Source of the DNA: Acidisoma cellulosilyticum
GTDB taxonomy: Bacteria > Pseudomonadota > Alphaproteobacteria > Acetobacterales > Acetobacteraceae
Length of the DNA: 64,000 nt
Assembly (NCBI RefSeq): GCF_020621385.1
Contig: NZ_JAESVA010000006.1
Location: forward strand, 124,001 to 188,000
Direction of reading: 5' to 3'
Of the stretch, positions 37,259-61,423 are shown one piece after another (positions within the stretch are counted from its first letter, which is position 1; each line of letters starts with the position of its first letter). The notes under the pieces were generated by a model. That model did not search any database. It was given only the letters and a program-made list of their open reading frames with translations, and had not been told where the DNA came from. The translations under genes and the position numbers were made by a program.

Positions 37259-37312
37259 GGCTTGGTGACTAAGGAGGCAAATTCGGAAGATTGATCCGAC
37301 ACCGGATCCACC

Positions 37313-37756
37313 TCAGACTGTCACATTGCGCCTTGCATTAGCGAATTCCAGTGCCTCCACGAAAACCGCGATGCTGGTCACGCGCGACAGGAAATAAGTC
37401 GAGGCGCCGCTTTCCAGAGTTCGGTTCAGGACCAATTTATCCAGAGTAGAAGCATCCGATACCAAAATAATGCTCGCGCCCGGATAGGCATCGCTCAACG
37501 TCTCGACATCGCAAAAATCAGTGAACTCGACCTGATGGGAATGGTAGATGATCGTGTCGAACACTTGTTCGCGATGGAGCAGGCAATCATCAATGCTATC
37601 AAATTCCGTGATCTCGAATGAACTATTCGCGTTGAGGACAGCGCTGGAAAGCACTTCACGCGTCAGCGAAACCTCATCCACCCAAGCGATATGAGTGTTT
37701 TTCCGCCTATTTTTGAATAAAACCTCAGCATAGGCCCCGTTGATCGGACTAGTCAT
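37313..37756 (-). CDS. Stand-alone pseudo-receiver domain protein
   Basis: A 147-residue protein consisting of a single receiver-like alpha/beta domain. Strand 1 ends in AWVDEVSLTREVL, where receivers have their acidic pair. Strand 3 reads FDTIIYHSHQVEF, so the position of the phospho-acceptor Asp is occupied by the YHSH motif. The conserved Thr/Ser and Lys of strands 4 and 5 appear as LVSDAS and LSRVTS. It should not be phosphorylated in the usual way. It is a clear paralogue of the N-terminal half of the LuxR-type protein at 44728-45465 but lacks any output domain. GAGG precedes the ATG at the right distance. Possible roles are protein-protein signalling or titration; none is established. 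Confidence 0.75.
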   Translation of the reverse strand: MTSPINGAYAEVLFKNRRKNTHIAWVDEVSLTREVLSSAVLNANSSFEITEFDSIDDCLLHREQVFDTIIYHSHQVEFTDFCDVETLSDAYPGASIILVSDASTLDKLVLNRTLESGASTYFLSRVTSIAVFVEALEFANARRNVTV

Positions 37757-37860
37757 AAAAACCTCAACAAGATCTATTACAACTCAAATCTAGGCTTTCT
37801 TGTCCGGCGCAATTGAATGCACTTGATCCGCCATAAAAACATATGGGACCGGCCGCAAGA

Positions 37861-38985
37861 TCAAGCCTCTCCCTCGCTCAAAATCGCGAGAACGCTCGGC
37901 GCAAAAAAACTGCGATTCCGGCCTGCCTCGCCGTACAAGCGAAGGATCCCGATCGCGGCAAGATTGCCGACAACCTTATTCGCGGCCTGAGGACTGACGT
38001 CTAGCCGTTTGGCGACACTGTTCGCACTAACGACTGGATCGAATGCTAGTGACCGAACAATGGAGAAAGCGCTGGAATGCGCGTGAACACCGGCTGCCTT
38101 AAGAGCCTCGATCCATTCACTGGACAGTCGTTCCAGACCATCGAAACAGGTCCAGGTTTCAAGAAGAGAGTCTTCGATAATGTCCAGGAACGTAAAGCAC
38201 CACAGATCCCAGTCGCCGTTCATCTGCCCTGATTGAAGGGCTTCTTCAAGAGAAGCGGCATGTTTCGCGAAGGCGCGGGAGACAAAAAGGGGTGCCAGCC
38301 CTTCCCAACGCAGCATCATTGTCGTGAGCGAGCGACCAATAGTGTAACCGCCAATACTGCACGGAAAAATTGTACAAATTCGAGCAATTGCTATTGCCAA
38401 TCGCAAAAGCATCGATATTTGCCCGCCCGAATTCACAAATTCTGCGAGGGATTGAACATGTTCAGCGATCTGCGCGGACACATGCAAGCCGATTTGGTCA
38501 AAGGTCGTTGATAAGCGATTTGCACTTCGCTTGTTTGTTTGATGGGAATTCTCTCTTCCGGACATGGTTGTGGCATCGCCATCGGCAAGCCGCATTGTCT
38601 CCAGAAGTATCAAAAAATCCTCGGCGCTTTCCGGACGATTTGCCCGAAGTACTATGTCGCCGTTCTGCTTGGCGAGGCGGAAGATCGGCTGAGGTATACG
38701 AACGCCCGGGCCGTCTGCCTCATGAACCAGCAATTCCAACAAGTCGAGCGACGGCACTCTTGACCCTGTCGCAATTATAGCGTCCCGCCGGCTCATCAAA
38801 TGATAAAACTGAAACAGATCTGGGTTCTTATCGAGCCTTGCGTTACATTTTCCGACCGCGAATATCAATTTTTCGATACGCGTCTGAAAGCGGCAATGAT
38901 CGACATACCGTGACAGTTCTTCTGGAACAAATGATGTCATGCCATGACGGTTCGGCTTAAACTCGACAGAGCTATAATTTCCCAA
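37861..38985 (-). CDS. Fic-fold protein with lost catalytic motif and C-terminal winged helix
   Basis: The 374-residue protein follows the plan of bacterial Fic proteins: a Fic_N-like region (FVPEEL, KCNARLDKNPDLF, then RRDAIIATGSRVPSLDLLEL, about residues 20-95), a helical core, and a C-terminal winged helix (SANSVAKRLDVSPQAANKVVGNLAAIGIL). Where active enzymes have HPFxDGNGRxxR, this one has FPCSIGGYTIGR followed by SLTTMMLRWEGL. The catalytic His, the acidic residue and the anion-hole Asn are gone, as is the inhibitory EG of the SSxIEG segment. It is therefore probably not an AMP-transferase. The start is TTG at 38985; ATG 38940 is an alternative but would cut the Fic_N region. It may act as a DNA-binding regulator. 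Confidence 0.7.
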   Translation of the reverse strand: MGNYSSVEFKPNRHGMTSFVPEELSRYVDHCRFQTRIEKLIFAVGKCNARLDKNPDLFQFYHLMSRRDAIIATGSRVPSLDLLELLVHEADGPGVRIPQPIFRLAKQNGDIVLRANRPESAEDFLILLETMRLADGDATTMSGRENSHQTNKRSANRLSTTFDQIGLHVSAQIAEHVQSLAEFVNSGGQISMLLRLAIAIARICTIFPCSIGGYTIGRSLTTMMLRWEGLAPLFVSRAFAKHAASLEEALQSGQMNGDWDLWCFTFLDIIEDSLLETWTCFDGLERLSSEWIEALKAAGVHAHSSAFSIVRSLAFDPVVSANSVAKRLDVSPQAANKVVGNLAAIGILRLYGEAGRNRSFFAPSVLAILSEGEA

Positions 38986-39907
38986 GAAATTACAATCCCA
39001 ATGAATAGCAAGCTTTCTCGCGCGACGAGAGATGAACGCGCCGAGCTGGCAATTTAGTAATCAGACACAAATTTATAATATGGCATTATAACAAATCTCA
39101 CTCAACCAAAAAGGCGAACATCTCCCCCCAACACAGGATGAGCCTAGCCATAATCACGGCTTTATTCGACACTTGGCGGAATATGAAAGATCAACTGCAA
39201 ACACAGCCTATTCATTTCGCTGTGTCAGCTATACGCGATTATCGCTAGCCAACACAATATGGTTCTAACGAAAAAGTGAAGAATGGGGTGAATTGCCCGC
39301 GATCGCGATCGCGTTTTGGCATTTGAATCATAAGGTAGCAGCATTTTTCGAAAAATTTCCAAGGCAACACAATTGCGTTTCTGCTTGGCTGTATTGGCCG
39401 CCCGGCACCCTGTCTTTGCGATAAGTTTTATATTCACACATGCGAATGCAAGGTTACCGATTCAAAGTCTCCCAGCGGCGTGACTAATAAAACTTTCTAT
39501 CAAATCTCTTCGTGTTTCTAAAATTAGTGATCACAAGCCCGCTCTCTGCTTACCGCAAAGAGCCCGTATTTATTTTCCTAATGACTAATTCATTTCTATA
39601 AATACAATGCTGAACAAATGTTCACCCATAAATCCCGAAAAATTCACAAGATATTTCGTTTATTATACAATGCTGCCTTTATCGGCATCAGTGACATTGC
39701 CAAGCCTTAAGCCGATGATGGGCGGCAATTCTGCGCTCCCGCCTTTCTGTATCAGGCTTAACCCCAAAAAGGAGGGATGCTCAGACCATCATGCGGGCTG
39801 TCGGAGCCGTCAGGTATAGGAACCGCTCCAACAAGCCCGCACCAGAAAACCTGGCTCCCCGTTTAAAATCGATGAAGTCTCAAACTTTGGAACTCGCAAA
39901 TATCAGG
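38986..39907. other. Gene-free AT-rich region with a GCGATCGC-type palindrome
   Basis: Over 900 bases, markedly lower in GC than the rest of the window. It includes a perfect 16-base palindrome at 39298-39313 (GATCGCGATC core) and a hairpin GCTCTCTGC/GCAAAGAGC (39541-39563, one mismatch) followed by a T-rich stretch. Short open frames at 39225-39437 and 39607-39819 show no protein-like features. It may hold the promoter of the Fic-like gene, an undetected RNA, or simply foreign DNA. Confidence 0.4.
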
Positions 39908-41770
39908 TTATTTTGAGGTCGTTACCGCAAAATCAGAAGTTGTATTGCCGTATAGGGCTTGGTCACCGCTGAAGATGTCCGATCCGTTGAGCGTGACGCC
40001 ATTGACATAGAGATTGCGGTCTTCACTGTCAGAGCCGCCATAGGCGTCATTGACGAAACCGATCCCGATCGTATGCGCACCGGAACCGAAGTTTCCGCTA
40101 AAGGAAAAGCCTTGTGTGGCATTCGCCTCATGAAGTGCCGATACCACCTGCGGCGTCGTCACGGCTTTGCCGTCTATATAAAGTACGAAATCCGCATTCC
40201 CCTGCCATGCGTCTTCTGACAAGGTCAAGGTCAGATTATCGGCAGGACCCGTGCCGGTGGTAGCACCTGGACCGACCGAGAAGTTGTCGGTACTGTCACC
40301 GGGCATGCTAGCACTCGTGCCCGCATAGGTTACGCCATCATAGGCGATGGAATTGACATAAAGATTGCGATCAAGGCCCTGACCGCCGTAAGCATCGTTG
40401 ATGAAGCTGATCGCCACGTCGTTAACGCCGGAATTCCAATCACCGGTGAGCAGAAAGGTATTCGCGTCATCCGACGAATGCAGCGCCGATGTTTGATACT
40501 CCCCGCCGACCTGCTGGCCGTTGACCGCGACTGTGAAGGCCGCATCCCCTTTATAGGCATCCTCCGACATTTGCAGCGTCAGTGTATGCGCTGTCGCTGC
40601 TGGCGGATCGGCAGCGGGCGGACTAGCAGGCGCTGTCGCCGGATCGGTGGCAGCTGCGCTTTGGACGCCGAAATATTTGGCCCAGGCCGCCGCTTCCTGA
40701 GGTTTGTCATCCGACGCAGCCGAGAACGCGTAATTGCCGCCGAGGTCGGAATCCCATATGCCGACATACTGGATCTGAACACCGGCATTGGCGAGGGTCG
40801 AGGATAGCCACTGGACAAAAGTCGGATTGTCGGTCAGGTTGGAACCGTCATCCAGCGTATTCCCGGCGCCGGTTTCGCAAATGGCGATCGGCTTTCCCGT
40901 CGTTTTTGCAAAGTCAATGATATCCTGCAGGCTGAGGGCCGATCCGCCGCTGTCATCCAGCGAGTATTCGGAGGAAGCGGGATCCGTATAATAATGTTCG
41001 AGGTTGACGGGGTCTGCATCCCATTGCGCCAGGCTCGTATCATAGACGGGATTGGGAGAGTTCAGCTCCTGACCGCTTTTATCCCAGTCATATATCTTTG
41101 ACCCGTCATGGTAAGGAAACACATCGCCGTAAACATCGACGCCGATTGTATCGACATAGGCGTTACCAGGGTAAAGCGTCTGAGTCACGTTGTCGATATC
41201 GCTGAAATTGACGATCCCCGGGTTCCAGGCGACCGTCATATTGACGCCATCGGCTTGAGCCGCAGAATGGAGAACCGTATAGATATGTTTGAAAGCCGCG
41301 ACCCAATCTGCCTGCTCGGCCGCCGTACTGCCCGCAAATGACGTGGAATCGGCGAGATTCATCTCGACGCCCGGGCGCCAAACCTGCGTCATAAAACCCG
41401 CATCTGCCCAGGATTTGACCATGGATTGCAAGATGCTGTCATATGTGCCGTTCGCGAAGTTCTTATACATCTGATCGGCGGAGGGCGAGCCGGCTGCCGT
41501 CGAACTCATAGGCAAAGCGATCGTCGGAATTTTGCCTTGAAACGTCGGTGACGCCGCGGCCGATGTCGCCGACCACTCCACGTTGCTATCCCAATCGGTG
41601 ACGAGCTGGCTCGAATCTACCGAGCTATTCATGAAAGTCGGCTGCGCACCCATAAGGCTCGCAAACTGCGTATTCGCCGCATCAAATTCCGCCTCTGCGT
41701 CCGGGTCGCTGATATTCGGATTTCCGACGGAAACGCCGAGTGGAAACGGAAGCCCTGAACTTGTTGTCAT
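39908..41770 (-). CDS. GH26-like glycoside hydrolase with two CBM60-like modules
   Basis: Predicted secreted polysaccharide hydrolase of 620 residues. The catalytic TIM barrel (about residues 1-370) carries VWRPGVEMNL with the probable acid/base Glu near 135, TVAWNPG, YVDTIGVDVYG and KPIAICETG with the probable nucleophile Glu near 297, as in GH26 mannanases and related enzymes. A Pro/Ala-rich linker is followed by two ~110-residue copies of a carbohydrate-binding module (LTLQMSEDAYKGDAAF and LTLTLSEDAWQGNADF, each with FxNDAYGG and DRNLYVN), like calcium-dependent CBM60. There is no signal peptide, although the substrate must be outside the cell. AAGGAG lies just before the ATG at 41770. The substrate (mannan, xylan or the cell's own polymer) is open. 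Confidence 0.8.
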   Translation of the reverse strand: MTTSSGLPFPLGVSVGNPNISDPDAEAEFDAANTQFASLMGAQPTFMNSSVDSSQLVTDWDSNVEWSATSAAASPTFQGKIPTIALPMSSTAAGSPSADQMYKNFANGTYDSILQSMVKSWADAGFMTQVWRPGVEMNLADSTSFAGSTAAEQADWVAAFKHIYTVLHSAAQADGVNMTVAWNPGIVNFSDIDNVTQTLYPGNAYVDTIGVDVYGDVFPYHDGSKIYDWDKSGQELNSPNPVYDTSLAQWDADPVNLEHYYTDPASSEYSLDDSGGSALSLQDIIDFAKTTGKPIAICETGAGNTLDDGSNLTDNPTFVQWLSSTLANAGVQIQYVGIWDSDLGGNYAFSAASDDKPQEAAAWAKYFGVQSAAATDPATAPASPPAADPPAATAHTLTLQMSEDAYKGDAAFTVAVNGQQVGGEYQTSALHSSDDANTFLLTGDWNSGVNDVAISFINDAYGGQGLDRNLYVNSIAYDGVTYAGTSASMPGDSTDNFSVGPGATTGTGPADNLTLTLSEDAWQGNADFVLYIDGKAVTTPQVVSALHEANATQGFSFSGNFGSGAHTIGIGFVNDAYGGSDSEDRNLYVNGVTLNGSDIFSGDQALYGNTTSDFAVTTSK

Positions 41771-42659
41771 AACCACTCCTTGCGCACAAGAGCGCGGATC
41801 AGGCTATTGCTGGTCAAGCAAATGGCCGGGGTTTATCGAGCAACCGGACGCCCATTGGATGTCGGGTTGATGGTTATTGAAACCGCAACTAGAAAACCCG
41901 ATCGCACTCTCTTCGTCGGTAATTTAGCTTACCTCAATGGTTTGACGTTTTTGTTATTGCTAAAACAGCTGGCCGGCGAATCGGAATTGTACGATTTTTT
42001 GCTTGATCTTGATTGCGCTCACCTTTTTGAGAGACAAAAGTCATTGCGCTATCTCTTTAGCGTCACTATCTCGATCGCATTCAACATAAACGTTGTTTAA
42101 TCAACATTTTTTGAATATATCCAGCTGTATTGCTTTTCTTTAAAAACCATCTTATCGGCCGCTTGTTCTGTACAGTTCTTAATCGAGGTGATTTTTACTC
42201 ATAAAAATCAACAAAAAATTTTATCTTTACTCCTTCTTAACCTCTTGTCACGTTCCACCTGAATCGTCCTTATCCGGGCTTGCTGGCTTTGCGTGGGTAT
42301 TGCCATAAAGCAAATATTAATAATTCTCCTGCTCTTGTGACAGTCCTTACCTTTGGCCGACAGGACAGACGAATGCTCGTCGCGATCCGGGATATCATCC
42401 GCGGCATCCGTTGATGTCGTGTGGTGAGGGCTGGGCCATGTGCCGAATAGGAGGCTCGGGAAGCCAAGCTGCCAAACAGCGCCCTTGGCTCTGGCCGACC
42501 GAAAACCACGATCCCCCTCGGCGCGACCGCTTTCTCGCAAAAAGCCGGGCTGTGAAGATGATCTGTTTTGAATTAGGAACAGACGACCGCTGCACCGATC
42601 CCGGCGCGCATGCGACTGAGAAAGACCAGCACGCCCGACCGATGCGAGGACTAGCTCAT
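41771..42659. other. Long divergent intergenic region with AT-rich core
   Basis: About 890 bases between the glycosidase and the first Crp/Fnr gene, very AT-rich from about 42050 to 42240. Open frames exist through it on both strands (for example 41780-42100 and the upstream extension of the Crp/Fnr frame from 42411), but none has protein-like composition. Promoters for both neighbours should lie here; I could not place them. Confidence 0.35.
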
Positions 42660-43379
42660 TTGGCGCTATACGATCACCACATCGTCCAGAATCGCCTTCT
42701 CGCAGCACTTTCGGGCGAGGTGCTCGCTAAGCTGGCGCCGAAACTGACCTTGGTGACGATGACGCCGCGGCAAGACCTCTGTCAGCCTGAAGCCGTGATC
42801 GACTCCGTCTATTTTCCGGAAACCGGGATGATTTCCCAGGTCAGTAATCTCGATGAGGGGGAGCAGGCCGAGGTCGGCGTTATCGGCAGGGAGGGGATGC
42901 TGGGAAGCGCGCTCATCTCCGGCGTAGAAACCTCTTACACCGAGGCAATGGTTCAGCTCGCCGGCACAGCCCTGCGCATGAGCGCCCCGGATTTCAGCCG
43001 TGAAATGGAGCAAAACCTCGCTTTTCGCGAATTGTTGCTCCGCTATAGCGAGGCATTCCAAGCCCAGATCATGCAAACCGCCGCTTGCAACGGTCGACAT
43101 CCCCTGGAACAGCGGCTGGCGCGTTGGCTGCTGATGGCCCAGGACCGTAGCGGCGAGGAACAGCTTGTACTGACGCAGGAGTTTCTGGCGATGATGCTCG
43201 GTGTCCATCGTCCCAGCATCACGATCAGCGCGCGCCGTATGCAACATGCAGGGCTCATTCGCTTTTCGGCCGGCCGCGTGACCATTCTGGATCGCGACCT
43301 TCTCGAAGCCAGGTGTTGCGAATGTTATGGCGCGGTCACGCGCCGCTTCCTCGCCCTGCTTGGTCCGTCTTTTGGCTAG
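42660..43379 (+). CDS. Crp/Fnr family transcriptional regulator, first of a tandem pair
   Basis: Regulator of 239 residues: an N-terminal cyclic-nucleotide-binding-like beta roll (DSVYFPETGMISQVSNL, EVGVIGREGMLG) and a C-terminal helix-turn-helix (LTQEFLAMMLGVHRPSITISARRMQHAGLI). The roll lacks the RxS-type cAMP pocket motif and the Cys cluster of Fnr, so the signal is unknown. The start is uncertain: TTG 42660 has GAGGA nine bases upstream and aligns with the start of its paralogue, while ATG 42642 has no ribosome site. The frame is open back to 42411, but that part does not look like protein. It is a close paralogue of the next gene. Confidence 0.85.
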   Translation: MALYDHHIVQNRLLAALSGEVLAKLAPKLTLVTMTPRQDLCQPEAVIDSVYFPETGMISQVSNLDEGEQAEVGVIGREGMLGSALISGVETSYTEAMVQLAGTALRMSAPDFSREMEQNLAFRELLLRYSEAFQAQIMQTAACNGRHPLEQRLARWLLMAQDRSGEEQLVLTQEFLAMMLGVHRPSITISARRMQHAGLIRFSAGRVTILDRDLLEARCCECYGAVTRRFLALLGPSFG

Positions 43380-43508
43380 GAATGTAAGGAACCTGACAGC
43401 CGAATTGATGATACTGGCGCAAAAGTATTTAATCGCTACATTTATACCGGCTCGTACGCGACTGAGAGGCAACCCGCACTCCCGCCCGATCTGAGCGAGG
43501 AGTGCCGA

Positions 43509-44219
43509 ATGGCGCCTTTTCAATGCGGCACCATTTGCAATCGGCTGCTTGCTGCCCTTCCCCCGGATTCGCTGTCACGGGTCGTCGCAAAACTTAGTCA
43601 TTTTATTTTAACAACAAAACAGATCGTCCAACGCGCTGACGCGCCGATCGAGGCCGTCTATTTCCCGGCAAGCGGCATGATCTCCCTGGTCAGTAACCTG
43701 CGTGACGGCATGCAGGCTGAGGTTGCCGTTGTGGGTACGGAGGGGATGCTCGGGACCTCAGTGATTTCTGGCGCTGAGACGTCTTTTGTCGAGGCCATTG
43801 TACAGATGCCCGGAACCGCGCTCAGGATGGCCAGCATCGATTTCAAGCGTGAGATCGAGACAAATGCGCCCTTTCGTAACATCATTCTTCGCTACAATGA
43901 GGCATTGCAAGCCCAGTTCATGCAAACGGCCGCCTGCAATGGTCGCCACGGATTGGGCCAGCGGCTCGGTCGCTGGCTGCTGATCGCGCATGATCGGGCC
44001 GATCGGGCGGAATTGCTGGTAACTCAGGAATTCATTGCCATGATGCTCGGCGTTCATCGCCCCAGCATCACGATCGCCGCCGGCAATCTTCAGCGAGCCG
44101 GTTTGATCCGCAGTTCCGGCGGCCGCATCACCGTGACCGACCGGGCTGGGCTCGAAGCGGCCTCCTGCGAATGCTATGGCGCGGTCCAGAAGCGCTTCGC
44201 AAACCTATTGGGATCCTAA
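43509..44219 (+). CDS. Crp/Fnr family transcriptional regulator, second of a tandem pair
   Basis: Paralogue of the preceding gene, 236 residues, with the same blocks: EAVYFPASGMISLVSNL, GTEGMLGTSVISGAETSF, MQTAACNGRHGLGQRLGRWLL and the helix-turn-helix QEFIAMMLGVHRPSITIAAGNLQRAGLI. AGGAG lies six bases before the ATG. The two recognition helices are nearly identical, so they may bind the same sites and compete or form heterodimers. No cAMP-binding signature or Fnr-type cysteines are present. Relatives of this type are common near exopolysaccharide and stress genes in alphaproteobacteria. Confidence 0.88.
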   Translation: MAPFQCGTICNRLLAALPPDSLSRVVAKLSHFILTTKQIVQRADAPIEAVYFPASGMISLVSNLRDGMQAEVAVVGTEGMLGTSVISGAETSFVEAIVQMPGTALRMASIDFKREIETNAPFRNIILRYNEALQAQFMQTAACNGRHGLGQRLGRWLLIAHDRADRAELLVTQEFIAMMLGVHRPSITIAAGNLQRAGLIRSSGGRITVTDRAGLEAASCECYGAVQKRFANLLGS

Positions 44220-44727
44220 GCATCGGGGCCGGCCTGCCGTAACCGTTGCGTGATCCGTACTATATGTGACAACCCGCTGGAATTTAGATTGTTACACTCA
44301 GCCCTCAGGTGGGAGAGGTTTTGCGCCGATGCCCATCAATCAGGTCAATGAAAACGGCATTTTTCTTGGAACTCGGCCATGCATCGGGTGTTCGCCAAAA
44401 ATCAAGACAATCGTCCAGCCTGCGACTCAACCGCGGATGATCAACGAAATTTGAAGACCGCATGCGGCAAGGCAAAAACTGACGCTGAAGATCAAGCTAT
44501 TGACCCAGCCGGAGGGCTGCGGCTGATACGAGACAGGAACGGCGCTGTCATCGGTCTCTGGCAAACCAGGAGTAGCCGCGAAGGCCCAGATGACGAAATC
44601 GAGGCGTTTGTCATGACCTTGTTAGATATTCTGCACGCGGGTGAGGGAATCGGCAAAGCACGCCATCGGCCCAGTCCCGCTCATCAAAATGCTCCGGCCA
44701 ATCAAACCAGACCTTATTCAGACAATA
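44220..44727. other. Intergenic region after the Crp/Fnr pair
   Basis: About 500 bases. A 119-codon open frame at 44379-44738 contains GGLRLIRDRNGAVIGLWQ, which could be protein, but the flanking parts are low-complexity and polar, and its end overlaps the LuxR-type gene on the other strand. I do not call it as a gene. No terminator is clear. Confidence 0.3.
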
Positions 44728-45465
44728 CTAAGGATTAGCCTCTCCCGGCTTGTCCTCAACGGCCTGGGCCTTGTCGCTGGTGCCCGCTTTTCGCATCACA
44801 TTGCCGACATGCATTTTAACGGTTGCGAAACTAAGCTGCAGCTTTTTCGCAATAGCTCGGTCTGACTCCCCCAACCATAAATATCCCAGTATTTCTGCTT
44901 CGCGTTGCGTCAGCCCATGGAGCCGAAAACCCGCGGATGCTTGCTCATCACTCTTCCTTCGGGCTTCCTCCCCTTCGTCGGGCCCGTGATAGCCTCTTGG
45001 GACCGACAAACCGCCGGCACCCACCAAGGCCAAGGTCTTGGCGAAGACTCTCAAATCGCTGACACGAGAAGAGACATAAGCAGATACGCCAGCATTGAGC
45101 ACGACATCGACCACCCGTGAATCGACCGTGATCTCGTCCGAGATAATGATAAGATAGGATGCCGGAAAAGACCTTCGCAGAACTTCGGTTTCGCCAAATC
45201 GCTCAAATAGGATTTCATGGGAGTGATAGACAATAATATCAAAACATTGCGCCTTATGAGAGGCGCAATCACTCACCGATTCAAATACCGAGATCTGAAA
45301 TGCAGCGTCGATCTGGTTGATGACACGCGAAAAAACTTCTCGGGTTAGTTTTACGTCGTCGATCCAAGCTATGATGATCGGGGCGATGCTCTGACCACTT
45401 TGTACGGAACCTGGAAGCGACGGCATTGCATTTTTTAGGTCCGTTCCGTCTCTCTCCTCAATCAT
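44728..45465 (-). CDS. LuxR-type regulator with pseudo-receiver domain
   Basis: Response-regulator-like protein of 245 residues. The N-terminal domain (about residues 28-150) aligns with the stand-alone protein at 37313: AWIDDVKLTREVF, then FDIIVYHSHEILF, where the YHSH motif stands in place of the phosphorylated Asp. The C-terminal GerE/LuxR helix-turn-helix is intact (LTQREAEILGYLWLGESDRAIAKKLQLSFATVKMHVGNV, about 178-216). Without the acceptor Asp it is probably controlled by ligand or partner binding rather than phosphotransfer. It is the last gene before the exopolysaccharide locus and could regulate it. No histidine kinase is nearby. Confidence 0.82.
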   Translation of the reverse strand: MIEERDGTDLKNAMPSLPGSVQSGQSIAPIIIAWIDDVKLTREVFSRVINQIDAAFQISVFESVSDCASHKAQCFDIIVYHSHEILFERFGETEVLRRSFPASYLIIISDEITVDSRVVDVVLNAGVSAYVSSRVSDLRVFAKTLALVGAGGLSVPRGYHGPDEGEEARRKSDEQASAGFRLHGLTQREAEILGYLWLGESDRAIAKKLQLSFATVKMHVGNVMRKAGTSDKAQAVEDKPGEANP

Positions 45466-45834: not shown

Positions 45835-46923
45835 TTAGACCAGCACATTATCGGCCAGAGATTTCGACTCTGCCGTTAAGCCAGGACCGGTCGGCGCCAG
45901 CTTGCTTGCAACACTCTCCCAGTTGAACCGCTCAGCACAGGCCAGTTGAAAGCGCACCAGGCGGTCCCGCAATACATGCGGGTCCATTCGGCTGATCGAG
46001 GCGAGATGCATCGCAATCTCCCCGACGCTATAGACACGTCTCACAAAAAAATAATGATCCAGGACTTCGCTTAAATCCTCGTTGACATCCGACAATGAAA
46101 GAACAATCTGATTTTGTGCTATATAGGCTAATGTCTTGAGCTTGTGCCCCGATTCGAATCGGTCGGAAATGACCCCGAACCTGATAATATCGGACGCTTC
46201 GGACTCCGACGGCAGCGGCAATATCGACAGAACCTCGGTGGCGCGCCTCGGCAGCCTGTCAGACAAAATGGGAAAGCGATTTTTGCTCCTGGCATAATCC
46301 TTGGCAAATCGCACGGCATCCCGCCGCTTCGGCCACCAATCATAGGTGCCTGACAGGACAAGGTCGCTGACGACCCGCGCACCTGGCCTGAGCATGGTGA
46401 CCGGGGGCATTCCGGGCAAGGTCAGCAGCACCGGTCTTGCGCCCGGCAGACTGGCCACATAATCCTGATCCCGCTTTGAAAGCGTCGCGATCGCCGAAAG
46501 CTGCGGCGACCGAAAAATCCTCCGCTCCCATCGCCCCGCCTGAATGGCAAGAAGCCAGGCTATCGGATTGCGCGGGAATATCCTCGGCAAGGCCTGGCTG
46601 GTGATATTATGAGCGATCAGGATAGCCGGTCCCGTCAAGCTGGAGACCAAAGCGTCAAACGGTTCCCAGGAACAAATCGTCAGATCCTGCCCAGCCTGTG
46701 CCACCGATACCAGGGCACGATTGTCACGCGTTGCGAAACGAGCCCGGTTGCGCGGGATACCACGGAGGATATTCCAAAGCTCAAGCCAGCGCGGCGCCGG
46801 TTTCGGACAGACGGTGGTGACGATATGGCCCAGGTCCCGCAAAGCCTGGATAGTCTTACGGTCGAAGACCTCGTCTCCGGCAGCGCCGTCAACCGGAGAC
46901 TTGCCAATCCAAAGAATAAAAAT
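45835..46923 (-). CDS. Glycosyltransferase with disrupted or non-standard start
   Basis: Predicted GT4-type glycosyltransferase of the exopolysaccharide locus. The first conventional codon, TTG 46842, lies inside the conserved N-terminal fold (LRDLGHIVTTVCP). The same frame continues upstream with plausible protein: IFILWIGKSPVDGAAGDEV, then FDRKTIQA, a typical first strand and nucleotide-loop helix. That frame has no ATG, GTG or TTG before a stop further out. Either translation begins at ATT 46921-46923, which has AAGGGAG upstream, or a one-base frameshift separates it from ATG 46943, whose frame begins MARESET. The rest includes AHNITSQALPR and a C-terminal acceptor/donor domain without a clear EX7E. 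It may be a pseudogene if the frameshift is real. Confidence 0.65.
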   Translation of the reverse strand: MFILWIGKSPVDGAAGDEVFDRKTIQALRDLGHIVTTVCPKPAPRWLELWNILRGIPRNRARFATRDNRALVSVAQAGQDLTICSWEPFDALVSSLTGPAILIAHNITSQALPRIFPRNPIAWLLAIQAGRWERRIFRSPQLSAIATLSKRDQDYVASLPGARPVLLTLPGMPPVTMLRPGARVVSDLVLSGTYDWWPKRRDAVRFAKDYARSKNRFPILSDRLPRRATEVLSILPLPSESEASDIIRFGVISDRFESGHKLKTLAYIAQNQIVLSLSDVNEDLSEVLDHYFFVRRVYSVGEIAMHLASISRMDPHVLRDRLVRFQLACAERFNWESVASKLAPTGPGLTAESKSLADNVLV

Positions 46924-47222: not shown

Positions 47223-48923
47223 ATGAGACAATTTGGCGAGGACCACGGATATGCCAGCCTCCTCATCGCCGCACTGCTGGGAACTGTCCTGTCGCTATTG
47301 TCGACGGGCTATCTATTCGCGACCGGCAATAATTTGTTCCATCTCGGTATCATCGGGGCTCTTTACGATCTGCCTCAATATCAGAACGACGCTTTCATCC
47401 AGTCGCTGCGCCACTACGCGTCAGGACCTTGGCTCATTCTGTCCGGCAAGGACAGAACGCTCACCGTTGACGGCCTGTTTTTTGTCCTCCTGTTCTTTTC
47501 ACGCTTTTTGTCCATCCTCGGCTTTCTGCTCTGCGCTGCCCTGCTCGGGCTGGTCTCTTGGCGCGAAAGGCTGGTCTTCGCCAGCGTCATCGCCACTTGC
47601 AGCATCATGCGCGGCCTGTCGCTTGCCGGTGGCGGCGGCCTGTTCATTCCAGAATTCACCCAGTCGGAAATCGCCAATGGCCTGACGCTGATCATGCTCT
47701 ACTGCCTCGGCCGGCGGAATCTGTTGGGCGGGATAATCCTCAACGCTTTGGTTTTCTTCACCAATGCCTTTTTTGCCGTCTGGAACGCCCTGCCCTTTCT
47801 GCTCGTGACCGGTTATTGGCTTCGGACGGGCGCTGTCAGCCCAAGGCAAGCGATGCGGCAGATCGCTCTGGCCAGCCTGCCGGCAATGGTGATCGCAGCG
47901 CCGATACTGGTCAATATCAGAAGCAATCCCCATTGCGGCCAGCCCATGGCGGTCGATTACCTGACCTTTCTGACGCAATACTGGCCGCTTCATTTTTTGA
48001 TTTGGTCGAATTCGCTGGGCGCGATCTTCGGTCTCGCCGTCATCGTCATTCTCGGCGCGTGGGGTCTTTGTCTGCTGCGGCCAGTCAATCCCACGATCAC
48101 CTTGTCGTCCCTGGCTTTTGTCCTGGTCTATGGCTTGGGAATCCTTGTCCCGATGGCGACGCACAATCCCGCCATCCTCAATCTTCATCTGCTCAGATCC
48201 AGCACCTGTCTGCACATCATGACCAGCCTGATTCTCGCCAGCCTGCTGACCCGCTGGGTTTTGAGTGGCGACCGCTTGGAACGCCGGGTACTCGGCCCGC
48301 TGCTGCTGCTGGCCTTCTGCTCTATCCGCGCCCTGGTGCCTTTGGCAGGCATTCCGCTCGCCATTGCCATGTCACCACGCCTGCAAAGGGTCGCGCGGCA
48401 TGGGATCGAGCGTCGCGGCATACATGCCAAATGGCTTGCCGTCGCTGTCGGCGTGCTGATGCTGGGGCTTTGGAGCCTCTACGGTCGGCAACAGATCGCG
48501 ACCCTGCGTCTCAGCCATCAGCAGGTCCGGACCTGGACCGCGATCGGGGAATGGGCGCGCAGCCAAACCCCGAGAGACGCCGTTTTTCTGCTTCCCACCA
48601 AGGACATCAGACCTCACGCGCCCGCGCCTTATTCCTATGCCGGCGATAGTGCGATCTTTGAATTCACTTCACATCGGCAAGTCTGGGTTGATTTCATCCG
48701 CGGCGCGGCCGTCATGTGGACGCCCTCCTATTACAGCGAATGGAATAGCCGTATCTGGCCGGTTCTGGCCCTGAAAACGCCCGGACAGCGGATGGACTAT
48801 GCCCGCCGGAAGGGCATCACCTATCTCGTCGAAGCCTGTACCGGCGGCAGTGCCGCTTTCGGCGTCGATGGTCTTTGCGTCTATGCGACAAAAGTCCCGG
48901 GCAAGCCACCACCCAGCCTATGA
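47223..48923 (+). CDS. Multi-span membrane protein, GT-C-like
   Basis: Integral membrane protein of 566 residues with about ten to eleven hydrophobic spans in the first 430 residues, then a soluble C-terminal region containing WARSQTPRDAVFLLPTK, SHRQVWVDFIRGAAVMW and YARRKGITYLVE. This plan (N-terminal membrane bundle, C-terminal extracytoplasmic domain with TPxDAxFL) is that of GT-C-fold glycosyltransferases and related polysaccharide proteins. The catalytic acidic residues expected in the first outer loop cannot be assigned with confidence. Its last 43 bases overlap the convergent polymerase gene. Probable role in assembly of the polymer made by this locus. Confidence 0.65.
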   Translation: MRQFGEDHGYASLLIAALLGTVLSLLSTGYLFATGNNLFHLGIIGALYDLPQYQNDAFIQSLRHYASGPWLILSGKDRTLTVDGLFFVLLFFSRFLSILGFLLCAALLGLVSWRERLVFASVIATCSIMRGLSLAGGGGLFIPEFTQSEIANGLTLIMLYCLGRRNLLGGIILNALVFFTNAFFAVWNALPFLLVTGYWLRTGAVSPRQAMRQIALASLPAMVIAAPILVNIRSNPHCGQPMAVDYLTFLTQYWPLHFLIWSNSLGAIFGLAVIVILGAWGLCLLRPVNPTITLSSLAFVLVYGLGILVPMATHNPAILNLHLLRSSTCLHIMTSLILASLLTRWVLSGDRLERRVLGPLLLLAFCSIRALVPLAGIPLAIAMSPRLQRVARHGIERRGIHAKWLAVAVGVLMLGLWSLYGRQQIATLRLSHQQVRTWTAIGEWARSQTPRDAVFLLPTKDIRPHAPAPYSYAGDSAIFEFTSHRQVWVDFIRGAAVMWTPSYYSEWNSRIWPVLALKTPGQRMDYARRKGITYLVEACTGGSAAFGVDGLCVYATKVPGKPPPSL

Positions 48924-50137
48924 TCGCGCAACGGCGCAATGCGGATAAGGGAGCCGAACAGAACCAGCATCATGACGCTCGTCGGCGCCACGATGCCACC
49001 CCCGAAAAATAGCTGCGGGATCAGAACCACCAAAGCCAGGCTGCGGCTGAAGGTGGAGCCCAGGACAGCCCAAAGCAGAAAGACGTGGAAGATGACGGCC
49101 GTCAGCAGCCCATATTCATAGATGAGCTTATTGGCCGGCCATTGCACCTGGTTATCGCCCTTGGGGGAACTGCCCGGCCCCGCGCCGATCAACAGAAAGG
49201 ACGGATCGGCGATCAATGTCATCGTATCCTCGAAGGGTAGGATGAGCCGCGCATAACCGCTGGAGTTGTGCGACGAAAGCTCGGTCGAGCGCTCCAGAAG
49301 ATGCGAGAAGGCCCCGTTCAGCCCGGCCAGCAGGATGAGCGGCAATCCTATGCCCATCGCCAGTTTGAGAAGCCGACGGTCGAGGCGAAACAGCAGCAAG
49401 GGCGATACCAGCGCGATCGCGGCCAGCCCCGTCCCCGCCATGCCGGCGACAAGCCCCGTCATCAGGATCGTCAAACGCCAGATTTTTCGAAACCAGAGCA
49501 ATTCCGCGGTAAGGGCGATGGCCAGATATTCCGAGGCGATCGAGGGTTCCAGAAAGAAGACCCCGTTCGGGGTGAGGAACGGCGAATTCCAACTATAGGG
49601 GCGCAAATAGGCAAAGCCGCGGACGAGAAGGCTGGGCGGCAGGATGTCATCCAGATTCGGCCAGAACCGATTTCCGACCGAGAATTGCACGGCCTGCTGC
49701 GCGATGATGATCAGCGCAATGACGAGCATGCCGCGTTGGAAAATATTGCAGCAGCGCATGGCGATATCGCGGCTGACATCGACACGGAAAACCAGACTGC
49801 TGTAGATGACCAGAAAGATCGCGACGGCCGGCAGGCTGCCAATCTCGCGCCCCGCGAAAGCCTCTCCAACCAAAGCGAATGTAACGCTGGCGAGAAGGGT
49901 GACGAAAAGCAATGCCCGCGTCGGGTCGATTACCGCCCGGCCGGTCAGGAAAATCCAGAACAGCGTTCCGAGCATGATAAAGACATCGATCCCGATGCCG
50001 CTGCCGGCCCCGGACGTCAGGCCGATTTTTTGAAGATATATCGCGGAGATGGCCAGGACGCCGAATGGCACAAGTATAGCGCTCTTGCCGACGATGACGG
50101 ACAAGCCAGCAGCATCGAGAGACTGGTCACGCATCAT
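48881..50137 (-). CDS. O-antigen/exopolysaccharide polymerase-like membrane protein
   Basis: Integral membrane protein of 418 residues with ten or more spans and a large extracytoplasmic loop (about residues 165-205, NLDDILPPSLLVRGFAYLRPYSWNSPFLTPNGVFFLEPS). The layout is that of Wzy/O-antigen-ligase family proteins, which join repeat units in the periplasm. Two segments resemble the family's arginine-containing loops (SSGYARLILPFEDTM). The ATG at 50137 has GAGGAAGG eight bases upstream; a TTG at 50155 is less likely. With the flippase and the Wzc-like kinase it would form a Wzx/Wzy-dependent pathway. The C-terminus overlaps the neighbouring gene on the other strand. Confidence 0.7.
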   Translation of the reverse strand: MMRDQSLDAAGLSVIVGKSAILVPFGVLAISAIYLQKIGLTSGAGSGIGIDVFIMLGTLFWIFLTGRAVIDPTRALLFVTLLASVTFALVGEAFAGREIGSLPAVAIFLVIYSSLVFRVDVSRDIAMRCCNIFQRGMLVIALIIIAQQAVQFSVGNRFWPNLDDILPPSLLVRGFAYLRPYSWNSPFLTPNGVFFLEPSIASEYLAIALTAELLWFRKIWRLTILMTGLVAGMAGTGLAAIALVSPLLLFRLDRRLLKLAMGIGLPLILLAGLNGAFSHLLERSTELSSHNSSGYARLILPFEDTMTLIADPSFLLIGAGPGSSPKGDNQVQWPANKLIYEYGLLTAVIFHVFLLWAVLGSTFSRSLALVVLIPQLFFGGGIVAPTSVMMLVLFGSLIRIAPLRDHRLGGGLPGTFVA

Positions 50138-50182
50138 CGCTTTGGCCTTCCTCAACGCAGATCCGGCAGGTGGATGGGATCG

Positions 50183-51085
50183 TCACGGCTTGGACGGCGC
50201 GTAGACGCGCACATAGTCGATCGCGATCGATGCCGTCTGTTCTGGATAGACCGCAGCCTTCTCCCAGGGAAAGCCGTAGGCCAGATCGAGAATGAGGAAT
50301 TGCGGCTGGTTCGCATCGGAACCCGCAGGATGCGCGATCCTGGCGACCTCCTGTCCATTCAGATACCAGACCGTCTCTGTCTTCGTCACCAGAGAGCCAA
50401 ATCTATTGAACCGATCGGCAAGATCGAGGTTCGTCCCGATGCCGAAGGTCCGCTGCATATAAGGTGCCGTGACATTCGGGCTACTCGTCCGGTCGTTCCA
50501 GTGAATCGACGCGAAATAGGTTTTGGCATTGCCGAAACTCTCGATCACATCATCCTCCCACTGCTTCACATAGCGATTGCTCGGCGGCCCGATGCCCTTG
50601 TCTATCCCCAAGGTCCAGAACGCGGCCCAAGCTGCGGGATTGTCGGAAAGCTTCATCCGCGCCTCGACATAGAAGGGCGGCGCGATGGCGAAACTGTTGA
50701 AGGTCGAGATGGCGCCGCCAAAATGGGTCGGCCGGCCACGCGTCTGCGCCGGATAGGATGCGGCGGAGGAGCGCGGCATGGGGCCGGCGGAGATTGTCAG
50801 AATAGAGTTTTCAACCGAAAATGGGCTGAATTTAGCGGGGTTTTCCGTCACAAACCATTCATAGCCGAAGCCTTCTTCGTTCTGCGGCGTCCAAACGCCG
50901 GTCCCCTTGTTGAGCCCTTCCATGCTCGGTCCGCCCGATCTCAATGACAGGCTGTCGAAATCGTCGTGAAAGACCAGCCTATAGCCGATCGGCTGGGCGC
51001 CCGCGCAGGCCGGCAGACCAAAAGCAAAGGCCGCAAGGCCTGCCGCTATCCATCTTGCCAAGGACGCCCTCCGCTTCTGGCTCAT
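50183..51085 (-). CDS. Family 16 glycoside hydrolase, exported
   Basis: Predicted endo-acting polysaccharide hydrolase or lyase-like trimming enzyme of 300 residues. The first ~30 residues form a Sec signal (basic start, ARWIAAGLAAFAFGLPACAGAQ). The jelly-roll fold is indicated by VFHDDFDSLSL, FYVEARMKLSDNPAAWAAFW and WEDDVIESFG, the last giving the ExDxxE catalytic pattern of GH16 (acidic residues near 170-176), plus DRFNRFGSLVTKTETVWYLNGQEV. It overlaps the flippase gene by 4 bases (ATGA), so it is part of the polymer operon. Such enzymes cut or size the polysaccharide in the periplasm. The exact linkage is unknown. Confidence 0.85.
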   Translation of the reverse strand: MSQKRRASLARWIAAGLAAFAFGLPACAGAQPIGYRLVFHDDFDSLSLRSGGPSMEGLNKGTGVWTPQNEEGFGYEWFVTENPAKFSPFSVENSILTISAGPMPRSSAASYPAQTRGRPTHFGGAISTFNSFAIAPPFYVEARMKLSDNPAAWAAFWTLGIDKGIGPPSNRYVKQWEDDVIESFGNAKTYFASIHWNDRTSSPNVTAPYMQRTFGIGTNLDLADRFNRFGSLVTKTETVWYLNGQEVARIAHPAGSDANQPQFLILDLAYGFPWEKAAVYPEQTASIAIDYVRVYAPSKP

Positions 51086-52542
51086 GGCCGACGCTGCCTT
51101 AGCTTCGGCAGACCAAAAACCACCTCATAGATCGCCGCATAGGCCAGGATCACGACGGCAAGGCAGATGCCGCCGAACAGCAGGCAATCAATCACCGCAG
51201 TCAGGGAATGCTGCTCGAATATCCAGCCCAGACCGAGATTGGCTGCCAGCCAGAACAGCGCGATGGCGACCAGAGCCACCAGGAAGGCGCCGCCATTGAC
51301 CCACAACAGCCGTCCCCGCAGGCAGGCCATGAAAACGACCCCGATCAGCACTTCCTGCGCCGCCAGCAAAGCGAGATAGACCAAGGTCGAGCCGGACCAG
51401 TAACCGAGGGCCGCGGCCAAAAGACTGGCCGTGATATAGATATATTGGCATAGGGCGACCCGCCTGATTTTGCCGGTGCGCATCTGCGTCGCGGAAATCA
51501 CCTGAAAGGCGTTCCCGGCCGCACCGATTGCGAAGGAGAGCGCGATCCAGGGTTCAAGCCTGGGGTCGCCGCCATTCAACCAAAGCGCCAGCAGACGTCC
51601 GTGATCGGCGATGATGACGCAGGACACCGCGCTGGCCACCAAGGTCGCGAGCAGAATAAAACCGCCCATGATCGCATCCGCCTGATCGGCGTCGCGCGAG
51701 ACAAGCTCGGCATAGCGGATAGAGGCGAAGCGGCTCAGCTGGCTGATGACCTGGCGCCCCAGACTGAACAAGGCGCGCATCGCGACGAAGGTCGTAAGCG
51801 TCGCCGGGCTCGCCATGCTCGCCAAAATCATGACCGGAAGACTGAAACGGATCCAGGTCGCTGCCGGATCGGCAATCGCCAGGGGAATCACCCGGCCGAT
51901 ACGCCAACCGATGTCAGGCCAACCCGATATGAAAAGGCCGAGCGACCTTGGCTGTCGCAATAGCCAAGCCTGCGCCACGACGGCGGCGACCCCCGTGCCG
52001 AGCATGACATAGGCGAGCGCCGCAGGCCCGCCGTGGAAAACGAGAAGCGCCACCACCGACAAGGCATTGCGGCAGGCCACCATGCTCAGAAAAAGCCCCT
52101 CGACAAGGCGGAAATTCCCGAGCGTATCCAGCCAATAGCCGCGTACGATGAGAAGCGTATCCAGCGACAGGGTAACGATCAGGGCGAAAGGCCAAAACTG
52201 GAAGGCCGCGCTGCCGCGGATGATGGGTAAAGCGGCCCCCATGATGACGACCGCCGTGAAGGCCAGCATGATGCCGCGCGTCAGCGCCCAGATCTGACGG
52301 AAATACGCCGCCCCCGCCGGATCTGCCTGACGCGTGCCGGAGAGCAACTGGGCATGCCCGATGCTACGCAAACCGACATCGCTCACGCTACAAAGATTCG
52401 CGATCGCCAGGATGACGAGCCAATAAGCCGTTTCCGTCTGCCCCCAGACGCGCAATTGCAAGGGGAGAAGAATCAACTGATTGACGGCCAGACAAAGCTG
52501 CGTGCCGAGCGTGATCGAGAAGAATTGCAGAAAAATCTTCAA
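51082..52542 (-). CDS. Polysaccharide flippase, Wzx-type
   Basis: Integral membrane protein of 486 residues with about twelve to fourteen spans, of the polysaccharide transporter (PST/MOP) superfamily. It should flip lipid-linked repeat units to the periplasm. Typical features are the first span ITLGTQLCLAVNQLILLPLQL, a charged cytoplasmic loop, and SRDADQADAIMGGFILLA around residue 270. The start codon is TTG (52542) with GGTGAAGA just upstream; no ATG lies in frame before it. It is the first gene of a minus-strand unit continuing through the GH16 enzyme to the polymerase. Confidence 0.82.
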   Translation of the reverse strand: MKIFLQFFSITLGTQLCLAVNQLILLPLQLRVWGQTETAYWLVILAIANLCSVSDVGLRSIGHAQLLSGTRQADPAGAAYFRQIWALTRGIMLAFTAVVIMGAALPIIRGSAAFQFWPFALIVTLSLDTLLIVRGYWLDTLGNFRLVEGLFLSMVACRNALSVVALLVFHGGPAALAYVMLGTGVAAVVAQAWLLRQPRSLGLFISGWPDIGWRIGRVIPLAIADPAATWIRFSLPVMILASMASPATLTTFVAMRALFSLGRQVISQLSRFASIRYAELVSRDADQADAIMGGFILLATLVASAVSCVIIADHGRLLALWLNGGDPRLEPWIALSFAIGAAGNAFQVISATQMRTGKIRRVALCQYIYITASLLAAALGYWSGSTLVYLALLAAQEVLIGVVFMACLRGRLLWVNGGAFLVALVAIALFWLAANLGLGWIFEQHSLTAVIDCLLFGGICLAVVILAYAAIYEVVFGLPKLRQRRP

Positions 52543-52791
52543 TCTTCACCGCCGCAAAGGACCGGATTGCCCGGCCGAGCGGCCTGGCGAGAAATCCTTG
52601 TCTAGCATTAGCTCTTGCCTCGGAACACTGACCCTTATGCTTAGCGTCCTCTCTCTTATTTCCTGGCCTTTCTTAAAGATCTGCCTCTCCCCGCCAGGGC
52701 AGTCACTAGCGAAGGGATTATAGACGCCCGATCCGTCTCATTGCAGCTTGTCGCACCTTTGCCCAATCCGGAGGGTCCGCAGGAGTTCAGG
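52543..52791. other. Divergent promoter region inside the polysaccharide locus
   Basis: About 250 bases between the flippase (minus) and the exostosin-like gene (plus). It should hold promoters for both. No palindrome or clear hexamer pair was identified. Confidence 0.3.
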
Positions 52792-53838
52792 ATGAAACTG
52801 GTCTGGCACGCGAATAATCTTCTCGAAGCCGATTGGATCAGGGACCTATTGGGAACCCTCATTGACCAGGAAGCGCTCGACCTTGATTGCTCATGCTTCG
52901 ATGACAATACGATCCATGTCGTGAGCAGCAATTGGAAGCCGCTGCCGCAGTATGAATCCTATTTCGCGCAATGCAGAAGCCGCTGCAAGACCCTCATCCT
53001 CTTTCACGCCAGCGATGAATATTTCTCGGGCGGCAATGCCCTGTATCGGCATTTCGACCTCGTACTGCGCAATTTCCGCACCTATCTGACGACAGGGCCG
53101 GGCATTCTGTCCTTGCCCTTCGGCTATTCGAACGGCACGCGCCGCAGCGGGGATAGCAAACCGGCGAAGGAGCGCCGCTATGCCTGGTCCTTCACGGGTG
53201 AGATCAAGGCCTCGCGCATCGATATGGCGGCGGCGATGGAGGGGTTCGGCGATAATCTCTTTACCCGCACCGCCTCCATTGACGATGCGGCGGGGCGCAA
53301 GCTCAGCAAAGCCGAATTCGACGCCATCCTCAGCGACACGGTCTTTTCGCCTTGCCCCATGGGGAATGTCATATTGGAGACTTGGCGGCTCTATGAAAGC
53401 CTGGAACTGGGATGCATCCCTTTGATCGAGCGCCGACCCAGTCTCGACTATTACCGTACGCTGCTCGGCGATCATCCGGTCCCGACCTTCGCCAGCTGGC
53501 GCAAAGCGCGGCTTTTTGCCGAAACGCTTTACGCCGACAAGCATAGCCTCGCGCAGTTGCAGACCCATATCGGCGATTGGTGGGCGACGGAAAAGGGCAA
53601 GCTCCGCGCGACGCTCCAGACAGCGATCGCCGGGCCATCGCAATCCGCGGCGCTCAACCGTTTCGCGGCCTTGCCCCATAACCGCTACCCGGTGCTCTAT
53701 GAGCCGCTCCGGCTCGCGGAACTGCTGCGGCACCAAAGCACCGCCAGTCTGCGCCGCCGGCTGATGCGACCGACGGGTCCCCTCAAGCGCATCACACGTG
53801 ACGCGCTCAGGCTGCAGTCACGAAAGCCAGCCTCATGA
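52792..53838 (+). CDS. Exostosin-like glycosyltransferase
   Basis: Predicted glycosyltransferase of 348 residues. It resembles the exostosin (GT47-type) or related RXYLT1 C-terminal fold: KTLILFHASDEYF, YRHFDLVLRNFRTY, LSLPFGYSNG, KERRYAWSFTGEIKASR and, near residue 200, SDTVFSPCPMGNVILETWRLYESLELGCIPLIE, which is the donor-binding signature of the family. There is no membrane span. AGGAG lies six bases before the ATG at 52792. It converges on the SGNH-RTX gene with a 6-base overlap. It probably adds one sugar of the exopolysaccharide repeat unit; donor and linkage are unknown. Confidence 0.8.
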   Translation: MKLVWHANNLLEADWIRDLLGTLIDQEALDLDCSCFDDNTIHVVSSNWKPLPQYESYFAQCRSRCKTLILFHASDEYFSGGNALYRHFDLVLRNFRTYLTTGPGILSLPFGYSNGTRRSGDSKPAKERRYAWSFTGEIKASRIDMAAAMEGFGDNLFTRTASIDDAAGRKLSKAEFDAILSDTVFSPCPMGNVILETWRLYESLELGCIPLIERRPSLDYYRTLLGDHPVPTFASWRKARLFAETLYADKHSLAQLQTHIGDWWATEKGKLRATLQTAIAGPSQSAALNRFAALPHNRYPVLYEPLRLAELLRHQSTASLRRRLMRPTGPLKRITRDALRLQSRKPAS

Positions 53839-57570: not shown

Positions 57571-57765
57571 CTGTGTTTCTCTGGATTGCTAGGGCAATAT
57601 TCCTTCGAGCGGAATTGCCCGACGGACAGTATTTCTTTTCTCTAGACTCAGTATCGTGCAGGTTTCAGCAGTATCTCAGACATCCCGTCCGCCAACGTCG
57701 ATCTGACCGGCAAGACCGCAGACCGGGCGCCCGAACGCTCTGAATATCGGCGCCCGTCGCTGGCG
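57571..57765. terminator. Spacer with candidate terminator after the Wzc-like gene
   Basis: Between two minus-strand genes. GGGCGCC (57725-57731) and GGCGCCC (57749-57755) form a 7-base GC stem with a 17-base loop, 11 bases beyond the Wzc-like stop codon. There is no clear T-run, so termination is tentative. Confidence 0.4.
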
Positions 57766-59928: not shown

Positions 59929-60021
59929 CCTCATGTTGATGACACGCCAGACAAGGGCTCGGGTGAGCCGGCAAGCCTGACGGTCAAGGAATAGGAACCC
60001 TGTCCGGGCCTTAGAGCTGAT

Positions 60022-60049
60022 CCCGGTCAGATGGACTCATCTGACCGGG
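60022..60049. terminator. Hairpin terminator after the epimerase gene
   Basis: CCCGGTCAGATG (60022-60033) pairs perfectly over 12 bases with CATCTGACCGGG (60038-60049) around a 4-base loop. It is 71 bases downstream of the epimerase stop on the minus strand and upstream of the Wzc-like gene, so these are probably separate transcripts. Confidence 0.7.
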
Positions 60050-60119
60050 TGAAGATTTTCGCAAAACAAAGCGGCACCTGTTAGCCTAGACGAACAGGAA
60101 ACGCTCTCACCCATCTTGA

Positions 60120-61109: not shown

Positions 61110-61423
61110 CCGTTCATTCTCCAGATTTGTTTTGGTCAGATTGGCAAGCTTGCAACCGGCCGCCCATGCCTCAGTCAAAAGCAACGAAATCGCAACGGTT
61201 GCTCTTTCAATACAAGGGATCGATTTAAGAACCCAGCTGGATCAGCTAACCCAAAGGACTCAATGGCTCTATCCTCAACGCACAAACCATAATGACCCGA
61301 CTTCCTGTTTGGCGAGTAGATAGATGGAACTAGACCGAAGACGGCGGATGACCAGGCGCGTCCTGCCGACATAAAGACGCGAGGCCCAGCTTGGCTCAGT
61401 ACACTCTCATGAGGAGAGCGGTT
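61110..61423. other. Divergent region between epimerase and glycosyltransferase genes
   Basis: About 310 bases that should carry promoters for both genes. No protein-like frame; no clear palindrome or hexamers were identified. Confidence 0.35.

Follow-up and report, generated by a model that had tools for sequence, protein, structure and literature searches.

The window, meaning the whole 64,000-nucleotide stretch of the Acidisoma cellulosilyticum genome under study, contains two genes for receiver-like proteins, P0001 and P0002 (Table 1), both on contig C6 of a 6.0-Mb genome assembled in 59 contigs. An earlier interpretation made from the letters without database searches (the sequence-only reading) had described them as paralogous receivers with His in place of the phospho-Asp, one a lone domain and the other fused to a LuxR DNA-binding domain, and this description is confirmed. 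The open reading frames aligned without gaps over 119 aa (40% identity, E = 8e-34), and the alignment of the family profile with the solved LuxR-family receiver 2qsj (E = 1.6e-6) placed the phospho-Asp position of 2qsj at the first His of the YHSH motif and the D+2 position at the second His. The LuxR/GerE helix-turn-helix (HTH) domain was matched in P0002 (E = 7.6e-14) with no match in P0001, and tblastn with a LuxR HTH of the family, over 1.5 kb around P0001 and around its Acidisoma silvae orthologue, generated no match.

A (beta-alpha)5 receiver fold is predicted for both P0001 and P0002, with a fold match to 2qsj. Both proteins have lost the acceptor Asp and the strand-5 Lys, the Lys position being occupied by Ser in each; a computed receiver fold combined with loss of the phosphotransfer residues is what makes them pseudo-receivers. 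The earlier description of the receiver as unusual needs correction at strand 1, which is not degenerate and retains its acidic pair (DE in P0001, DD in P0002). Comparison with the A. silvae orthologues indicated purifying selection on both genes, in line with the selection that the sequence-only reading had supposed, with proportions of nonsynonymous (pN) and synonymous (pS) differences of 0.26 and 0.79 for P0001 and 0.33 and 0.76 for P0002, the pS values being saturated or nearly so.

P0001 generated no hit to any Pfam or NCBIfam family at cut-off, and P0002 hit only Pfam GerE. A PDB search with P0001 alone gave no match below E 0.25, and a scan of genome contigs with P0001 found no relative; one with alignment A4 found five loci. 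In a plasmid search P0001 had no match and P0002 matched 149 records, all below 60% identity.

An Asp-less receiver family in Acetobacteraceae

A receiver profile search of 299 Acetobacteraceae genomes returned strong matches (E < 1e-14) in eight genomes, amounting to at least 41 members: at least 11 in the window genome, at least 7, 3, 3 and 12 in four other Acidisoma genomes, and at least 1, 3 and 1 in three other genera. These counts are lower bounds, the best 11 to 14 candidates having been scored for profile A1 in most genomes. The Acidisoma genomes are labelled G000 (window genome), G004 (taken as A. silvae HW T2.11), G002 (taken as Acidisoma sp. L85), G001 and G003. Alignments A1, A2 and A3 take in 24, 28 and 24 of the 32 members then known, the 8, 4 and 8 left out being divergent, truncated or HTH-less, and a fourth match in genome G079 (C104, E = 4.9e-8) was excluded from the 41.

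The edge of the family is not sharp by score. Six members lie at 57-69 bits (C6:190k and C19 in G000; C3, C4:308k, C23 and C34 in G004), none with Asp, and in a sample of 385 genomes of the class two outside genomes came near, G357 from another family (Gly in the acceptor position; 69.9 bits, E = 7.8e-19) and G392 (Asn; 55.5 bits). A tree of 54 receivers (the 41 members and 13 others) set both outside the family, among ordinary or other Asp-less receivers, G357 grouping with the ordinary ones. The acceptor Asp was present in 30 of the 37 non-family receivers read, and Asp-bearing NarL-type receivers appeared only among the weaker matches. Judged from scores and tree, the family is an Asp-less clade beside a wider fringe of Asp-less relatives.

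Within the clade the acceptor residue is Tyr in 18 members, His in 17, Val in four, and Cys and Phe in one each; Asp occurs in none, in keeping with the earlier expectation that homologues would not commonly carry it. Lys is likewise absent from the strand-5 position, which holds Thr in 25 members, Ser in eight, Ala in five, Arg and Gly in one each, and a gap in one. A polar cluster is retained at the former active site, with Asp at DD1 in 36 of 41, His at D+2 in 33, Ser or Thr in 37 and Asp at T+1 in 36, all four occurring together in 29. The sequence-only reading had taken YHSH as the conserved signature and suggested metal or ligand binding by its two His. Neither idea fits the family: YHSH is exact in only 6/41, both His occur in 11/41, the second is absent in eight members, and the P0002 orthologue of A. 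silvae reads FYSH. Conservation is therefore centred on the D+2 His and the polar cluster rather than on YHSH. Two Cys are also conserved, in alpha1 (33/41) and in alpha2 (24/41), of which P0001 and P0002 keep only the latter. The Pfam receiver model (PF00072, Response_reg) matches only 2 of 28 members at E ≤ 1, so that surveys based on it would probably miss most of the family.

In the tree, the clade of P0001 with its A. silvae orthologue (64% identical) is sister to that of P0002 with its own (support 100/98); the lone form is thus most simply explained by duplication followed by loss of the HTH. HTH-less members occur elsewhere in the tree, namely the third gene of a trio on contig C5 of G000, together with the A. 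silvae orthologue of that gene, and a G004 gene of 150 aa that a long branch makes hard to place. The LuxR domain was probably lost three times, and at least twice on the present tree. A frameshift behind the HTH-less trio member was rejected, as the other frames held no HTH, their best match having E = 0.041 where the P0002 control gave 3e-12. P0001-type and P0002-type forms were found together in both genomes having either, G000 and A. silvae, and neither form was found in the three other Acidisoma genomes. The co-occurrence expected in the sequence-only reading is thus seen, in two genomes and possibly from one event.

Polysaccharide loci, the Fic-like gene and other neighbours

The earlier link to an exopolysaccharide locus is strengthened. 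The locus adjoining P0002 is kept on contig C25 of A. silvae with the P0002 orthologue at its edge, and the 335-aa protein next to P0002 has an A. silvae copy (68% identical over 320 aa) likewise adjoining the P0002 orthologue. On contig C5 of G000 three family genes stand immediately upstream of a glycosyltransferase-Wzc operon, and a homologous operon is headed by two or three members in G001, G002 and G004 and by one in G006 (Pfam assignments refer to the G000 copy only). The HTH-less trio member overlaps the glycosyltransferase gene by 4 nt (ATGA in G000, GTGA in G004). Across the family, 10 of the 27 clusters have a Wzz-domain gene no more than 20 kb away, measured between gene midpoints, versus 0.48 expected at random. 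Three members in G003 lie 3 kb from a Wzz gene, two further members on contig C2 flank a locus with a glycosyltransferase and a Hint domain, and in G079 a Poly_export gene, instead of Wzz, adjoins one of three clusters. Hint_2 (hedgehog/intein-type) proteins were also noted near family members at L011 9272-14131 and L012 9676-11049. Two earlier-described Acidisoma species bear large polysaccharide capsules, as stated in PMC8537097.

Table 1. Positions of the pseudo-receiver genes and other features in the window
Feature	Position	Strand	Remarks
P0001, lone pseudo-receiver, 147 aa	37313..37756	-	no DNA-binding domain; predicted complete (beta-alpha)5 fold
YHSH of P0001, residues 71-74	37535..37546	-	coordinates derived from residue numbers
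Degenerate Fic protein, 374 aa, C-terminal winged helix	37861..38985	-	104 bp upstream of P0001, same strand
16-bp block CACTTTTTCGTTAGAA	39263..39278	-	upstream of Fic-like gene; identical in A. silvae (L078 11173)
Glycosidase	39908-41776	-	GH26 match weak, below cut-off; also two stretches of CBM60 type
Tandem Crp/Fnr-type paralogues	42411-43379, 43509-44219	+	60% identical; between GH26-like gene and P0002
P0002, pseudo-receiver and LuxR/GerE HTH, 245 aa	44728..45465	-	
LuxR/GerE DNA-binding domain of P0002, residues 185-236	44758..44913	-	coordinates derived from residue numbers
YHSH of P0002, residues 80-83	45217..45228	-	coordinates derived from residue numbers
335-aa protein	45835..46842	-	no Pfam match; adjoins P0002
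Polysaccharide locus	48881..62710		adjoins P0002; synteny kept in A. silvae
Conserved proteins	48881-50155, 50183-51085, 51082-52542		no Pfam match; polysaccharide locus
GT47-like protein	52741-53838		weak, below cut-off; polysaccharide locus
GDSL/cadherin/RTX protein	53833-57570	-	polysaccharide locus
Wzz/Wzc-type protein	57766-59934		Wzz and GNVR matches close to cut-offs
NAD-dependent epimerase	60120-61184		polysaccharide locus
Glycosyltransferase	61391-62710		polysaccharide locus

The gene immediately upstream of P0001 encodes a protein that resembles the SoFic-type Fic adenylyltransferases and aligns with the Fic proteins 7cb8 (E = 4.4e-7) and 9vjc (E = 2.5e-4). It differs from them in the active site, where HPFx(D/E)GNGRxGR is replaced by FPCSIGGYTIGR, and the A. 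silvae orthologue (L078 9770-10978) is equally degenerate, its motif being unrecognisable. A non-enzymatic role of the Fic-like protein is therefore likely, the catalytic motif being lost in both copies. The order and strand of the P0001 and Fic-like genes are the same in G000 and A. silvae at different genomic places, adjoining a cupin regulator in the former and genes read as methionine-sulfoxide-reductase-like in the latter; therefore the pair moves or is kept as a unit. The Fic-like protein is the strongest operon-based lead for a partner of P0001.

The DNA upstream of the Fic-like gene is only 47% identical between the two species when aligned, with the 16-bp block identical, and this block is a candidate promoter or operator. 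Another conserved block, the 24-bp TGACATTTnTTTTnTGATGACAAG, lies just upstream of a different family member in both species (L011 5220, L079 10293). An operator common to several loci was rejected, since each block was found only upstream of its own gene among the 14 sequences scanned. A promoter and terminator scan gave no signal above shuffles.

That the receivers flank a glycosidase, as had been pointed out earlier, does not extend to A. silvae, where P0001 and the glycosidase are on different contigs. The A. silvae glycosidase (76% identical) was found by whole-genome search on a 7.1-kb contig (L128) with no receiver and nothing else in common with the window, and none of the eight compared loci matched the glycosidase. 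The other open reading frames on that contig look transposase-like from their sequence. The A. silvae P0001 copy is inside a separate 135-kb contig, more than 34 kb from either end; the P0002 copy may or may not adjoin the glycosidase, as the contigs of both end. In the four other Acidisoma genomes the best match to the second Crp/Fnr gene reaches 33%, a distant relationship. The GDSL/cadherin/RTX protein has 1245 aa, with GDSL lipase, cadherin-like and Ig-like parts and RTX repeats, and is 74% identical in A. silvae. Guanine-cytosine (GC) content dips to 0.52-0.55 over positions 36001-48000, against 0.57-0.66 in the rest of the window, which would fit an inserted or shuffled stretch.

Candidate roles of P0001 and P0002

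VpsT and CsgD, which regulate matrix genes, consist of a pseudo-receiver and a LuxR HTH. P0002 has the same architecture; neither protein is close to it in sequence, and VpsT was among its Foldseek matches as a match of fold only. RcsA and RcsB act on capsule, and RcsA and WhiI keep their HTH. RcsA/RcsB and WhiI/BldM provide examples of an auxiliary NarL-type partner such as is proposed for P0001, which differs in having no HTH. In WhiI/BldM heterodimers one NarL-type partner retargets the other regulator (PMC12632262), and the HTH-less LuxR homologues TrlR and CerN co-occur with full-length relatives and antagonise them (PMC11655674). P0001 is similar to TrlR and CerN in lacking the HTH and in sharing its domain with a full-length paralogue, P0002, in the same genome, though it has a receiver where they carry autoinducer-binding domains. 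Several aspartate-less receivers (ALR) and pseudo-receivers (PsR) exert control through their choice of dimer, through a ligand or through their amount (PMC12632262; PMC4395418). The P0001/P0002 family shares with them a receiver fold devoid of the phospho-Asp, and differs in its conserved D+2 His and T+1 Asp and its His or Tyr acceptor; Arg, Lys and His together make up 4% of ALR substitutions as given in PMC4395418. We found no paper describing this receiver family among the titles and abstracts returned from the open-licence PMC literature. NarL-type matrix regulators with pseudo-receivers are already known; what is new is the unnamed expanded family, marked by D+2 His and T+1 Asp, in which the HTH was lost repeatedly and one member is paired with a dead Fic protein.

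Based on these data, we tentatively propose, with a probability of about 0.4, that P0001 and P0002 are phosphorylation-independent NarL/FixJ-type regulators of surface polysaccharide, P0001 being an HTH-less partner or antagonist for which P0002 is the first candidate. Receivers of this family, devoid of acceptor Asp and Lys, would no longer be phosphorylated in the conventional way. P0002 and its paralogues would dimerise and use the LuxR domain to bind the promoters of genes for surface polysaccharide, with control lying in their amount, the choice of partner or a ligand and not in phosphate. P0001 would act by protein contact in the manner of TrlR and CerN, pairing with an HTH-bearing member, P0002 before others, into an inactive or retargeted dimer; the sequence-only reading had likewise suggested that the lone domain could dimerise with the LuxR protein or titrate it. 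How much P0001 is made would depend on the gene pair with the degenerate Fic/winged-helix protein.

Several observations weigh against this proposal. The constant neighbour of P0001 in both genomes that carry it is the degenerate Fic gene, and the P0001 and P0002 copies of A. silvae lie on different contigs, that of P0001 far inside its own. With 60% of their residues different, the two proteins need not share a dimer surface. The co-occurrence of lone and fused forms comes, as far as the genome sequences go, from two related genomes. The clusters near Wzz genes are mostly the same loci in related genomes and hence not independent, 17 of the 27 clusters, among them every one of the four from G079 and G256, are not within 20 kb of a Wzz gene, and the association in G001 alone has p = 0.098. 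Three divergent or isolated members (C5:290k-291k in G000; C23:27k and C34:1.4k in G004) have ordinary Pfam receiver genes at a distance of less than 2 kb, so that some members may still serve two-component systems.

The conserved gene pair suggests a different partner. P0001 may be dedicated to the upstream Fic/winged-helix protein, its receiver docking or sensing while the winged helix binds DNA and P0002 is not involved; we regard this as doubtful, though a serious alternative. The pair's constancy at unrelated sites, the shared 16-bp block and the probable non-enzymatic role of the Fic-like protein argue for it, and no receiver of the P0001 family was found within flanks of about 1.5 kb at 13 other Fic-related loci (13 of 43 other matches). 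However, the motif has been lost elsewhere too: of the 13 other Fic-related proteins read, eight keep it, four have clearly lost it and one carries an insertion in it. The Wzc-operon trio, which holds another HTH-less member, has no Fic-like neighbour among the genes examined, and the ancestor of P0001 was probably an HTH-bearing regulator because its nearest relative bears an HTH. From sequence, contact of P0001 with P0002 is only slightly more probable than contact with the Fic-like protein.

The remaining explanations concern the receiver itself. A sensor domain that holds a metal or a small ligand at its His cluster is improbable: the polar cluster at the former active site and the precedent of ligand-binding pseudo-receivers (PMC12632262) favour it, whereas the scarcity of members with both His and the FYSH of the P0002 orthologue oppose it, a site of one His and two Asp being a possible variant. 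Recurrent HTH loss and the low GC content of the region would suit P0001 as a drifting, functionless remnant of a duplicated regulator, which is nevertheless very unlikely in view of its low pN against a saturated pS, its conserved partner gene and its intact predicted fold. Least probable of all is a receiver still phosphorylated on another residue or by other chemistry. P0001 and P0002 do retain the acidic pair and Ser, and three other members have the ordinary receivers nearby; however, acceptor Asp and Lys are missing from all 41 members, and a HATPase_c (histidine kinase) match was found on contig C6 nowhere and within 30 kb of none of the 11 members in G000 and one of the 12 in G004, some contigs being short. 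The T+1 residue is generally small in working receivers, admitting phosphate (PMC12632262), and the T+1 Asp of the family therefore also argues against phosphorylation.

A broader and rather unlikely picture may be drawn, in which Acidisoma would control its capsule loci through a network of its own, made up of 3-12 NarL-type paralogues that need no phosphorylation and signal by partner exchange. HTH-less receivers arising from repeated domain loss would be bacterial counterparts of Id proteins, one set would go with a dead Fic enzyme that has become a DNA-binding partner, and surveys of receivers would overlook the network, its domains being barely recognised by Pfam. The switching of pseudo-receivers on and off has been called a mystery in a 2025 perspective (PMC12632262). 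Acidisoma, a culturable genus, offers a natural set of several paralogues per genome, with and without HTH and many of them beside polysaccharide genes, in which the idea of dimer exchange is testable, and the family points to an undercount of pseudo-receivers in surveys that rely on PF00072.

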